A stretch of DNA of 64,000 nt from Tolumonas auensis DSM 9187 (lineage in GTDB: Bacteria; Pseudomonadota; Gammaproteobacteria; Enterobacterales; Aeromonadaceae): NCBI RefSeq assembly GCF_000023065.1, contig NC_012691.1, positions 668,501 through 732,500 of the forward strand, written 5' to 3'. The notes beneath the pieces were generated by a model. That model saw nothing but the letters and a program-made list of their open reading frames with translations, ran no database searches and was not told the DNA's origin. Below, one piece after another: positions 59,993 to 64,000 of the stretch (within the stretch, counting starts at the first letter, position 1; every line of letters begins with the position of its first letter). Position numbers and translations under genes: made by a program.

Positions 59993-60145
59993 GGACTGAT
60001 CCTCATGATCGGGTAATCAATTGAATTATAAAAACATAACCATCACGACAGTTTCATTCATGATTTTACATATTTAATGTATTCCTAATGACCTTTATTG
60101 ATATATTTAATGGTTTCTTAAATCTATCTTTTATATTAGGTGAAA

Positions 60146-61492
60146 ATGAAGTTGTTTCTGCTGGGACGTCAGACGTCAAATCCTATTCTGAATCGCTTGC
60201 CGGCTATGTCTCATCTCTCTTCATTACCTGATGCAGTTGATGAGCCATCTTGCTTCATCCTCAATCTGGATGATCCGGCGCAGCAGGATCAGTTATTAGT
60301 ACAGATCAGGAAGCACCCCCGCTGGTTTGCTTTTCCGGTTTTCACCGTTCAGCCAAGTCAGCTGTCTGCGTATTTATCGGATGGCAATATCCCGGATGAT
60401 CTCCAGATCAGGATAGAACAATTTGCACAGCGATATCAGATATTAAAGGTTGATCCGGAAAAGGGGATCACCGAACGTTTACTGACCTATCTCTGGCTAT
60501 GGCAGGGGCGTTCGCTGAGTGCCAAACCACACCCTGAGAGTGCCCGGCTATATGATTATCCGCTGGCCGCGCTCTGGGTTGATCAGGATAACGAACTGTT
60601 CCCCTGGCTCCATTCGCTGGAACGTGAAGGACTCATCGAAGGAGCGACGCTGGTTGATCGGGTTCGTTATTGTTCTGTTTGTCACAGCGGCCATCTGAAT
60701 TATGTCGAATCCTGCCCGGAGTGCGGGAGTATTGATGTGGCGGCTGAATCGGCCTTGCATTGTTTTGCTTGCGGGCATGTTGCTACTCAGGCTGATTTTT
60801 TACACGCCGGGCATCTTTCCTGTCCTAATTGCCTGAGTCAGTTGCGGCATATTGGTGTGGATTATGATCGTCCGCTGGAAAACTATCGCTGCCATAGTTG
60901 TGATGCGTTATTTACAGATGGTGTCGTGAAGGTCCGCTGTCTGGAAGGCGGGCATGAGCAAACACCTGAACAGTTGATTATGCGTGCCATCCGGCATTAC
61001 AAGCTGACAGACAGTGGTGTGATGTATATGCGTAATGGTGCGCTGCGGAATCTGATCCCGGAATGGGTTGGCGGTCACGTCGCAGAAGAACATTTTTACT
61101 GGTTATTGCTATGGCAAAACAAACTTGCGTTACGTCATCGGAACTCGCATCTGGTCGCAGCACTTCGTTTTACGGAGTTAGGTGCTGTGATTTATCAACT
61201 TGGCGAGGCAGAAGCCATCACCCGTATTGATGCACTGACTCAGCGTTTGCAGTCGGTAATGCGGCACACGGATGTTTGTTGTCACTACCGGGATGATGTG
61301 TTGCTGTTCTTTTTACCCAATACACCGGCGGATCACGAGAGTGTGATTACAAATAAACTCAAATCATTAGGTGAAGAGCAGATAACGCATAATCTGCAGC
61401 TTGATTTCAGACTGCGTGCTTTGCCTGATCCACAGTTAGATGATGATGCGGCAATCTGGATCCAGCAGTTACTCGGGGAATTTACTTCGTGA
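60146..61492 (+). CDS. TackOD1-type zinc-ribbon protein with degenerate GGDEF-like domain
   Basis: A 448-residue protein. The N-terminal 130 residues look like a degenerate receiver-like domain. The centre (residues about 170-265) is cysteine-rich with five CxxC pairs: C176/C179, C190/C193, C206/C209, C226/C229 and C249/C252, which fit two or more zinc ribbons; I recognise this as the TackOD1 output-domain type. The C-terminal part (about 300-448) has a GGDEF-like layout but reads CHYRDDVLLFFLP (380-391) where an active cyclase has YGGDEF, so it should not make c-di-GMP. The ATG follows TAGGTGAAA. Its stop overlaps the glycosyltransferase start. Confidence 0.65.
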   Translation: MKLFLLGRQTSNPILNRLPAMSHLSSLPDAVDEPSCFILNLDDPAQQDQLLVQIRKHPRWFAFPVFTVQPSQLSAYLSDGNIPDDLQIRIEQFAQRYQILKVDPEKGITERLLTYLWLWQGRSLSAKPHPESARLYDYPLAALWVDQDNELFPWLHSLEREGLIEGATLVDRVRYCSVCHSGHLNYVESCPECGSIDVAAESALHCFACGHVATQADFLHAGHLSCPNCLSQLRHIGVDYDRPLENYRCHSCDALFTDGVVKVRCLEGGHEQTPEQLIMRAIRHYKLTDSGVMYMRNGALRNLIPEWVGGHVAEEHFYWLLLWQNKLALRHRNSHLVAALRFTELGAVIYQLGEAEAITRIDALTQRLQSVMRHTDVCCHYRDDVLLFFLPNTPADHESVITNKLKSLGEEQITHNLQLDFRLRALPDPQLDDDAAIWIQQLLGEFTS

Positions 61493-62820
61493 GTGATCAG
61501 CTGCTGATCATCAGTTATTTTTTTCTGCAGTTTAAACATACGTTATTATCGGATCTTTCGGCTGTTGCGTTATTTCTGCCGATGTTTCTGATATTTGATG
61601 TGCCGCTGAGTCTGATGGTGCTATTGGGCATAGGCCGCTGGTTCTGGCGTAAACATCATGAGCAGGAAAAACCGTATTACAGTCCGCTGGTTACCTGTGG
61701 CGTCACCTGTTACAGCGAAGGTGAAGATATAAAAAAGACCATTCTGACCCTGTGCGAACAGGTATACAGTGGTCATATTGAAATTATTGTTGTGATTGAT
61801 GGCGCCAGCATTAATAAATCCACCTATCAGGCCGCTTTAGAATGCCGGGAGATCGTGGCGCGTTATGCTCGCCGGAAGTTAATCATTTTACCGAAATGGC
61901 AGCGTGGGGGACGGGTTTCGTCGTCGAATGCGGCGTTGAATATTGCGAAAGGCGAGTTGTTTTTCGCTTTAGATGCGGACACTTCATTTGATAATGATAC
62001 GGTCAGTCAGATAGTACAGGAATTTACCGATCCTAATGTTCCTGCTGTTGGCGGTTCATTACGGGTCAGAAATGACAACGTAAGTCTGGTTTCCCGTATG
62101 CAGGCTCTGGAATATATGATTTCACTGCAGGGAGCCAAAACCGGGCTGGCGGAATGGAATGTAATCAATAGTATTTCAGGTGCTTTTGGTGCATTTCGTA
62201 CGAAATTTGTTCGGCAAATCGGTGGATGGGATACGCATTCGGGCGAAGATTTGGATATTACGTTACGTATCAAGCAGTATATGGCCAGACACCCCGATTT
62301 AAGAATTCCTTTTGCAGCGCATGCCATGGGCTATACGGATGTGCCAACTACGGTTAAGTCTTTGTTTATGCAGAGAATTCGCTGGGATGGCGATCTCTAT
62401 TTTCTTTATCTCCGAAAACATAAGCAGGGGCTTTCTCCCCGGTTATTAGGTTGGAGAAATTATATCTCGACTGTGTTATATGGTGTTGTTCAGAATATTC
62501 TTCTGCCATATCTGGTCGTTTTTTATACCATATGGGTTTTCTTTAATTATCCTGCACAGGTCGTGTGTGCCGGATTTGCCATTCAGTATTTATGTTATTT
62601 GTTTTTTACTGTATTACATTTTATGGTTTTTTTGATCGCTGTTTCCAAGCACCCGACAAAAGATATCCATTATTTTAAATGGTTACCATTTTATCCGATA
62701 TACGGTTTTATTATGCGCATAGTGAATGCTATTGCTGTATTAAATGAACAAATTCGACGTAGTCATGAAGAAAGTAACATGGCACCGTGGTGGGTGTTGA
62801 AAAGAGGAAAACGTTTCTGA
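61489..62820 (+). CDS. processive family-2 glycosyltransferase (membrane)
   Basis: A 443-residue membrane protein with helices near residues 20-50 and several after 310. The GT2 catalytic motifs are present: D104 in VVIDGASIN, D162-A-D164 in ALDADTSFD, E253-D254 in HSGEDLDITLR and QxxRW (Q295-W299) in MQRIRWDGDL, which is the signature of processive synthases such as cellulose, hyaluronan or poly-N-acetylglucosamine synthases. No PilZ domain is seen. The GTG at 61489 overlaps the upstream TGA by four bases, so the pair is coupled. The polymer is unknown. Confidence 0.88.
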   Translation: MSDQLLIISYFFLQFKHTLLSDLSAVALFLPMFLIFDVPLSLMVLLGIGRWFWRKHHEQEKPYYSPLVTCGVTCYSEGEDIKKTILTLCEQVYSGHIEIIVVIDGASINKSTYQAALECREIVARYARRKLIILPKWQRGGRVSSSNAALNIAKGELFFALDADTSFDNDTVSQIVQEFTDPNVPAVGGSLRVRNDNVSLVSRMQALEYMISLQGAKTGLAEWNVINSISGAFGAFRTKFVRQIGGWDTHSGEDLDITLRIKQYMARHPDLRIPFAAHAMGYTDVPTTVKSLFMQRIRWDGDLYFLYLRKHKQGLSPRLLGWRNYISTVLYGVVQNILLPYLVVFYTIWVFFNYPAQVVCAGFAIQYLCYLFFTVLHFMVFLIAVSKHPTKDIHYFKWLPFYPIYGFIMRIVNAIAVLNEQIRRSHEESNMAPWWVLKRGKRF

Positions 62821-62821
62821 T

Positions 62822-63895
62822 ATGAAAATTAAATTTCATCTCGATAAGCAAAAAAATCCTGCACAGCATGGCGGTGTAAAAATCAATTATGGTGCGGGAA
62901 AACGAATAGCATTTCGTTTGCGCTGGTATCTGATTTTGTTCTTAATTATAAGTCCGGTGCTTATTTTTGTCTGGTATATCACCAAAGACAAAGTAATTGT
63001 GGAGTCACCTGGTTTGCTGACCACTGAACCACTAAAAATTCAGGCGAGTCAGGATGCTGTTATTTCGGCGGTAAATATCAAACAAGGCCAACCGGCGAAA
63101 CAGGGTAATATCCTTATTGCTTTGGATAAACCCGTTCTGCAGGCAGAAATAAAGCAACTGGAAAATAATATTTCGTTATTGGAAAAAACATTAACCGGGG
63201 ACTGGGTAAAACAGGAAACGTTGTTGAAACAGAAAATTGATATTGCTGCTGCGGATCTGAAAGAAAAAAGTACTTTGTATCAAAAATACATGAGTTTTAA
63301 TCAGAACGGATTGTTGCAGTTAGAACAATGGGCCAATGTTAGTCAGCTGAAGATGAATGCCGAATTGTTATTGCTGGAAAGTAACCGCAATCTGTACGCC
63401 CTGAATCAGGATAAGATCAGCGGTAGTGCGGCGCAGTATCTGAATGAGCTCAAATTACGTTTACAACTTCTGAAAGCCAGACAATCGGAGTTGCAGGTTG
63501 TAGCCCCGATGGATGGAGAGGTAAAAGATGTACTGGTACAGCGGGGGATGACGGTCCGTAGCGGTGAACCGTTAATGTTGTATGCCATTCGTTCTCAACC
63601 TGTAGTGGTCGCCTATTTAACCCCCTCTGACGGGCAATTTTCCGGTATCGGACAACAGGCCACAGTGACATTGCCCGGCGGTGAAACGATAGCGGCGACG
63701 GTGAGTGAACCCACTAAAATTACCGAGCGGGTACCGGCACAACTGGCTGGCCCGTTTGATAACAACAAAGCAGCATTAAAAGTAGTGTTAAAACTGGAGC
63801 ACATGCCGGTACAGGTTATTGAAGGCTTATCGGTATCGGTTCGTTTTCATTACACCAGAAACAATGTCTGGTCGCATATCCGCAATATATTCTGA
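62822..63895 (+). CDS. HlyD-family membrane-fusion protein
   Basis: A 357-residue protein with a cytoplasmic basic N-terminus, one transmembrane helix (about residues 33-52) and a periplasmic region. It has a split biotinyl-lipoyl-like domain (VESPGLLTTEPLKIQASQD and VVAPMDGEVKDVLVQRG) around a coiled-coil hairpin of about 110 residues, then a beta-barrel. Such adaptors connect an inner-membrane synthase or pump to the outer membrane; Alg44-like relatives serve polysaccharide export. It begins two bases after the glycosyltransferase stop, so it belongs to the same operon. Confidence 0.88.
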   Translation: MKIKFHLDKQKNPAQHGGVKINYGAGKRIAFRLRWYLILFLIISPVLIFVWYITKDKVIVESPGLLTTEPLKIQASQDAVISAVNIKQGQPAKQGNILIALDKPVLQAEIKQLENNISLLEKTLTGDWVKQETLLKQKIDIAAADLKEKSTLYQKYMSFNQNGLLQLEQWANVSQLKMNAELLLLESNRNLYALNQDKISGSAAQYLNELKLRLQLLKARQSELQVVAPMDGEVKDVLVQRGMTVRSGEPLMLYAIRSQPVVVAYLTPSDGQFSGIGQQATVTLPGGETIAATVSEPTKITERVPAQLAGPFDNNKAALKVVLKLEHMPVQVIEGLSVSVRFHYTRNNVWSHIRNIF

Positions 63896-63947
63896 TGAGA
63901 TGGCCGGATAATTTCATATTTCACGACAATGCACGGAGGCAATAAGA

Positions 63948-64000
63948 ATGCTGATAGAAAAAAAATACCGATGGTTAGGGCTGTTTGCCGGGTTGTGTTG
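63948..64000 (+). CDS. start of a fourth gene, truncated by the window edge
   Basis: An ATG preceded by GGAGG at a good distance opens a frame reading MLIEKKYRWLGLFAGLC. The N-terminus looks like a signal peptide, possibly a lipobox (LFAGLC). It lies 52 bases after the HlyD-type gene and so is probably part of the same operon, for instance an outer-membrane or polymer-modifying partner. Nothing more can be said. Confidence 0.6.
   Translation, partial: MLIEKKYRWLGLFAGLC

Follow-up and report, generated by a model that had tools for sequence, protein, structure and literature searches.

We describe a four-gene operon, A-B-C-D, at the right edge of a 64,000-nucleotide (nt) stretch of the Tolumonas auensis DSM 9187 genome (contig NC_012691.1, positions 668,501 to 732,500; hereafter the window), which probably constitutes a compact synthase-dependent exopolysaccharide operon endowed with its own receptor for cyclic diguanylate (c-di-GMP), the product of gene A; we assign to this reading a probability of roughly 0.6. 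Protein A combines a TackOD1 zinc ribbon with a degenerate GGDEF domain, and its gene precedes those of a processive glycosyltransferase family 2 (GT2) synthase (B) and of a HlyD-family adaptor (C). An earlier note on the window had remarked that this layout is unlike the bcs, alg, pel and pga operons and, to our knowledge, A-B-C fits none of them. The data presented here are the first genomic evidence known to us on the role in bacteria of TackOD1, whose function is described as obscure in the consulted passages of PMC5847659.

In the mechanism that we propose, B would polymerise a sugar chain and pass it through the inner membrane, and C would bridge the periplasm from B to a TolC-type channel, for which Pseudomonas-type operons carry a gene of their own and which Tolumonas presumably recruits from outside the operon. 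A would lie on the cytoplasmic face of B, with its catalytically dead GGDEF fold binding c-di-GMP at a retained inhibitory site (I-site) and its zinc ribbon docking on the synthase, perhaps at the C-terminal tail of B, to license polymerisation; in this way A would probably switch polymer export on and off. The secreted protein D, of glycoside hydrolase family 16 (GH16), would trim or release the polymer in Tolumonas. The genes are as follows:

Gene A, 60140..61492, + strand: TackOD1 zinc ribbon (residues 110-289), degenerate GGDEF domain with I-site R375xxD378/K406, probably receiver (REC)-like N-terminus
Gene B, 61489..62820, + strand: processive membrane GT2 synthase (D104, D162/D164, E253/D254, Q295/R298/W299), tail HEESNMAPWW
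Gene C, 62822..63895, + strand: HlyD-family periplasmic adaptor, single N-terminal transmembrane segment (by eye)
Gene D, 63948..64000 (start portion), + strand: GH16 beta-glucanase-like, 255 residues, signal-peptide-like start (by eye)

A and B overlap by 4 nt and a single base separates B from C. The likely start of gene A is the ATG at 60146, as the earlier note had it, which is preceded by an AGGTG stretch and coincides with the first start codon of the corresponding open reading frame (ORF) of T. osonensis.

Conservation of the A-B-C Core

Loci were collected by a genome scan for A, of which the best 80 of 399 relatives were retained together with six more loci, giving 86 loci chosen by similarity to A and including the duplicates L015/L065 and L020/L021. 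Their order is A-B-C in 53, A-B-X-C (where X is a TolC-like gene) in 29 and other in four. The arrangement that the earlier note had pointed out in the window, A coupled to the synthase with the HlyD adaptor next, is thus kept, with or without X before the adaptor, in 82 of the 86 and is not due to chance; in three of the 82 (L025, L033 and L040), A or B is broken or short. The exceptions are three loci at contig ends (L058, L075 and L092) and one with a broken B (L037). With ORFs taken from the first start codon, all 84 readable loci have A and B either overlapping or at most 30 nt apart. In addition, the distances of A, B and C correlate across 77 loci (r 0.92-0.95; 0 of 1000 permutations for A-B and A-C), ten loci having been dropped (L054 and those that were duplicates, cut or broken), a correlation that is also expected from common descent alone.

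The association also holds in two even samples that depend less on this choice of loci, in which homologues of A in unrelated contexts, regarded in the earlier note as a finding that would speak against it, amount to one orphan A, in genome G280. In a class sample of 369 genomes, relatives of B at E <= 1e-80 adjoin A in 11 of 11 cases, and a GT2 gene stands beside 17 of the 18 A places scoring at least 160 bits (in one of them, in G306, with a broken B). An even phylum sample of 398 genomes contains 17 TackOD1 places above the Pfam cut-off, in 15 genomes, leaving out three matches below it; GT2 adjoins all 17 and HlyD 16, the seventeenth being on a 4.3-kb contig (two genomes of this sample, G041 and G045, also contribute to the alignment of A discussed below). 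Among the plasmid records with an A relative, GT2 comes next in 14 of 16, with A split into two ORFs in one; of the remaining two, one is truncated by the end of its record and the other is archaeal and lacks GT2. These counts do not include a further place on plasmid record H10 or, in G351, an additional A-like one that is weaker.

By eye, the surroundings of the module differ between genomes, and such varied surroundings of a constant core argue for a functional unit. It could be argued, from these same varying surroundings and from the orphan A, that A, B, C and D are mere neighbours without joint function. This is, however, highly improbable given the constancy of the core (82/86 loci and 17/17 places in the even sample) and the correlated distances, subject to the proviso on descent made above.

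The Zinc Ribbon and Degenerate GGDEF Domain of A

A belongs to the TackOD1 family (PF18551; 214 bits against a Pfam cut-off of 32, E 1.7e-63, residues 110-289), and the five CxxC pairs noticed earlier are all located, at residues 178/181, 192/195, 208/211, 228/231 and 251/254; C267 is also present, its usual partner position 270 being G in the window protein. These cysteines are almost invariant across the aligned homologues. The TackOD1 domain also contains a conserved motif, HIGxDYD[RK]P, which may be a contact loop, because it is conserved and yet residues 238-241 are modelled at low confidence.

The Pfam GGDEF match of A is marginal (23.9 bits against a cut-off of 23.8). In an alignment of 83 distinct full-length homologues (the short L025 and two identical rows were dropped), the GG[DE]E[FY] signature of diguanylate cyclases occurs in none, and there is no conserved acid on the strand that bears the metal-binding Asp, a residue with a role in active diguanylate cyclases. 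The I-site is retained: R375 and D378 are present in 83/83, position 377 is T in 81 and S in 2, and a basic residue, K or R, occupies position 406 in 82/83. Within residues 285-450 the only invariant columns are W325, R332, R375 and D378. The spacing from D378 to position 406 is what we take to be that of the PleD I-site. An AlphaFold model of A built with 60 sequences (predicted local distance difference test, pLDDT, 88.1; predicted template modelling score, pTM, 0.66) has GGDEF domains as its best Foldseek matches among the matches listed, and the N-terminal ~100 residues, in which secondary structure alone gives a receiver-like beta-alpha order, may be REC-like.

An RxxD motif followed by a basic residue in a GGDEF fold devoid of the signature is the sequence pattern of receptors of the PelD/BcsE kind, and A is probably such a c-di-GMP receptor rather than a diguanylate cyclase. 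The earlier note had envisaged a regulator acting by contact and not by making c-di-GMP; the absence of the motif fits this, and the proposal needs amending in that c-di-GMP probably still is the input of A, because R375xxD378 and K/R406 are conserved. Its supply is plausible, since the host genome, a single contig of 3,471,292 bases, contains 24 GGDEF matches, both copies of A included. An active cyclase that supplies the synthase locally would agree with the NCBI name "diguanylate cyclase" of the A relatives on Aeromonas and Plesiomonas plasmids and with the GGDEF match just over the cut-off, but, with the motif in 0 of 83 homologues and no conserved acid on the metal-Asp strand, we reject on sequence a reading that is scarcely tenable. 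A new set of c-di-GMP receptors is therefore predicted, some of which are now named diguanylate cyclases.

It is also conceivable that A is a zinc- or redox-responsive protein, or a purely structural assembly factor, whose degenerate GGDEF domain serves as a dimerisation scaffold with no nucleotide bound. The near-invariance of the cysteines is in keeping with this, as are the role in assembly that BcsE has as well (PMC7439463, in the passages compared) and the alphaproteobacterial relatives described further on, which keep TackOD1 beside GT2 and lose RxxD. However, a scaffold offers no obvious reason why R375, D378 and K/R406 should be kept while the remaining GGDEF domain drifts, and we consider this alternative unlikely.

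The Synthase and Its C-Terminal Tail

B has the features of processive membrane GT2 enzymes, with the D, DxD, ED and QxxRW motifs invariant in 49 B sequences. Its model (pLDDT 88.0, pTM 0.85) matches hyaluronan synthases first (1.7e-16), followed by a mannosyltransferase and cellulose synthase. Among NCBIfam entries, B matches PgaC/IcaA best, at 140.8 bits against a cut-off of 422.3, a score that does not identify a synthase of poly-N-acetylglucosamine (PNAG). A classic bcs, pel, pga or alg operon is ruled out by the gene content and, for pga, by this match far below the cut-off. The cellulose synthase BcsA has a PilZ domain of its own, whereas no Pfam match to PilZ is found in B.

The C-terminal tail of B contains a conserved MAPWW. 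Of 84 B proteins 81 have it, and the three without it (L033, L037 and L040) are broken or short ORFs. This tail, modelled at pLDDT <50, is a candidate partner-binding tail. More distantly related synthases carry a different tail with a P..V core, and MAPWW is retained in the synthases of two Rhodobacterales and of L146-L148.

The Adaptor and the Putative Export Channel

C is a HlyD-family adaptor according to Pfam. No outer-membrane gene is present in the operons of Tolumonas and of the Vibrio-type loci, and in Pseudomonas-type loci the TolC-like gene X is inserted between B and C. X encodes ~700 residues and matches Pfam OEP above the cut-off for L089 (2.1e-15) and L064 (2.1e-8) and below it for L045; the copy on an Aeromonas caviae plasmid is labelled TolC family protein by NCBI, and comparison of X with solved structures gave no credible match. 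The Tolumonas genome contains 15 OEP matches, 14 of them above the cut-off.

The earlier note had supposed that an outer-membrane component was lost past the right edge of the window. This is not the case: D, which in full spans L003:4049-4816 and reaches outside the window, is followed by a convergent gene that is peroxiredoxin-like by eye, so the operon ends at D, and an outer-membrane gene beyond the edge is ruled out. Further downstream, again by eye, lie one gene resembling an amylase gene and others resembling nif genes. The search for structured RNA within or upstream of the operon returned two eukaryotic small nucleolar RNA matches far below the cut-off, which we take as chance.

In a divergent clade, the order is X'-C-A-B. 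X' (~690 residues; L140, L141, L142, L144 and L145) occupies the TolC position and has a C-terminal stretch that is weakly glycoside-hydrolase-like, its weak match being to a glycoside hydrolase labelled GH97 (1.5e-5). In the three X' proteins tested, there was no match to OEP and no Pfam match worth naming. X and X' share a C-terminal stretch of ~150 residues (95% probability), and X' may combine an export channel with a trimming enzyme in one protein.

Gene D and the Polymer

That the fourth gene has a signal-like start was already seen in the earlier note and agrees with our inspection by eye; its identity as a GH16 beta-glucanase-like gene had not been recognised. D alone has no match in Pfam, NCBIfam or the PDB. 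When D is combined with three homologues from plasmids into a profile, 13 PDB sequences match at E <= 0.1 (best 1.9e-9), of which 11 are named beta-glucanases and two only "circularly permuted", presumably permuted forms of the same beta-glucanase. Moreover, the GH16 motif ExDxE is present as EIDIE in 6/6 members of the D family, three of which (D itself not among them) are matched by Pfam GH16; the motif and the profile match together place the family in GH16. D is carried by one of the 369 class genomes, that of Tolumonas auensis, and by T. osonensis, and a search of viral contigs for it found none. That D is a conserved component of the system is rejected, since it is confined to Tolumonas among the loci compared and the class sample.

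Because D is GH16-like, a beta-glucan is suggested as the polymer. B and C together also form the GT2 and HlyD pair typical of the mixed-linkage beta-glucan (Bgs) system, and a mixed-linkage beta-glucan is a possible, more weakly indicated product in Tolumonas. The opposing view, which falls only just short of even odds and concerns the product alone, being compatible with A as a receptor, is that B makes a polymer of amino sugars or uronic acids (PNAG- or hyaluronan-like) and that D is an accessory GH16 enzyme with another substrate. It accords with the hyaluronan synthases heading the structural matches of B, with PgaC/IcaA as its best NCBIfam match, low as the score is, and with a D homologue of Paraburkholderia that has, by eye, a nucleotide-sugar-dehydrogenase-like gene on one side and a different GT2 synthase on the other (plasmid, L113:3626-6838). 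The beta-glucanase names of 11 of the 13 PDB matches argue against it, as does the pairing with HlyD, which resembles the BgsB and XcsB glucan systems as these are described in the passages compared. On two Rhodobacterales plasmids (L151 and L156), galE lies directly downstream of the module, a hint that the polymer made there contains galactose.

Divergent Relatives and Possibly Exchangeable Inputs

The RxxD motif is found in 10/10 further A proteins of the class, the divergent clade included (the broken A of L143 and L147 were left out), and in 12 of 13 aligned A proteins of the phylum sample. Several observations weigh against a c-di-GMP-gated synthase operon as the explanation. One of the two A proteins of G665 is without RxxD, with H in place of R, and the other lacks a basic residue at position 406. 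RxxD is absent in 8/8 aligned alphaproteobacterial plasmid relatives, although GT2 follows, and the conservation of the I-site in A could itself be structural. Furthermore, the orphan of G280 (L139) is a full-length A that stands alone beside a response-regulator-like gene (by eye), in a genome that has no relative of B at E <= 1e-80; the structures closest to B are those of hyaluronan synthases and not of cellulose synthase; and D, Tolumonas-only as far as genomes were searched, has little bearing on the polymer elsewhere.

Since RxxD is lost in the alphaproteobacterial relatives and in one A of G665, c-di-GMP is not a universal input. The third gene in those eight relatives is HlyD-like in seven, and in Methylocystis has only a weak biotin-lipoyl match; two of the eight have a receiver domain above the cut-off and Hpt-domain genes nearby. 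What is constant is TackOD1 beside GT2, and the sensing domain varies. Tentatively, and at somewhat below even odds, TackOD1 might thus be a docking or licensing module for processive GT2 synthases across the phylum, with an exchangeable input: in some alphaproteobacteria a phosphorelay acting on a true receiver domain, and in the gammaproteobacteria examined, as in some lineages besides, c-di-GMP bound at the I-site of a dead GGDEF domain. The module and its HlyD and TolC-like partners, certain of which may include a domain resembling glycosidases, would form a widespread and largely unrecognised polysaccharide export system.

Comparison With Known Systems

The functional precedents for A are BcsE and PelD, and the architectural ones BgsBA and XcsAB-TolC; the operon would be a c-di-GMP-gated, synthase-dependent polysaccharide export system. 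The likenesses and differences given here are those of the passages compared, which do not mention TackOD1 in connection with any of the four. BcsE of E. coli, which binds c-di-GMP through an RxxD motif (R415TGD), is like A a cytosolic protein encoded by the first gene of its operon, with a degenerate receiver-GGDEF arrangement retaining RxxD and a processive GT2 enzyme as partner; unlike A, it has a predicted RecA-like N-domain and no zinc ribbon described, and it recruits BcsRQ (PMC7439463). A, with 450 residues and TackOD1 mid-protein, is not BcsE proper, and by eye no bcsQ, bcsR or bcsA lies in or right beside the operon, the rest of the genome not having been searched for them.

PelD of P. 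aeruginosa is likewise a receptor with a dead GGDEF domain and an I-site (R367, D370 and R402) inside an exopolysaccharide system, but it is membrane-anchored, contains a GAF domain and has the GT4 enzyme PelF as partner (PMC8461298), whereas A has TackOD1, no membrane segment by eye and a GT2 neighbour. The rhizobial BgsBA system, like the operon, comprises a GT2 enzyme and a HlyD-like gene and makes a c-di-GMP-activated mixed-linkage beta-glucan (PMC9495663, PMC5567048, PMC7997180); there, however, c-di-GMP is sensed by the C-terminus of BgsA, the HlyD gene comes first and no TackOD1 gene is described. The cyanobacterial XcsA-XcsB-TolC system shares with the operon a tripartite model of GT2, HlyD and TolC together with an endoglucanase, but that model is described as unvalidated and its components do not share an operon (PMC12430437), whereas Pseudomonas-type loci place the TolC-like gene between B and C. 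Loci with adjacent GT2, TolC-like and HlyD genes therefore bear on an export model doubted for lack of a shared operon (PMC12430437, 2025).

Archaeal REC-TackOD1 proteins share the zinc-ribbon domain with A (PMC5847659, in the passages compared); the Natronococcus relative, the only archaeal one viewed, is without the DYDRP motif, and a GT2 gene is not annotated next to it. In a literature search by titles and abstract openings, covering few subscription journals, no description of the operon was recognised among the papers listed.

Second Copy and Probable Mobility

A second complete copy of the four-gene operon, which the earlier note did not see, is present at 1.24 Mb in the Tolumonas genome, with an A that is 98% identical. 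The two copies (L003:1-4900 and L004:8100-13100) are 92-99% identical over A and B and 71-78% in the middle of C, a part in which the first is nearer to T. osonensis, with 87-91% identity; the pattern is suggestive of gene conversion in A-B from one copy to the other. Upstream of the second copy (L004:895-5120) lie mobile-island-like genes, including RadC-like and YqaJ-like exonuclease genes (by eye). The module can probably move, because a 29-kb mobilizable plasmid of Aeromonas caviae (L150:7974-13796) bears it in the form A-B-TolC-HlyD. In one genome of the family to which the window belongs (L014:3274-12258), the A-B-C operon adjoins pgaA- and pgaB-like genes (by eye), and an Aliivibrio fischeri contig (L026 and L031) carries two A matches ~14 kb apart, each followed by B and C.

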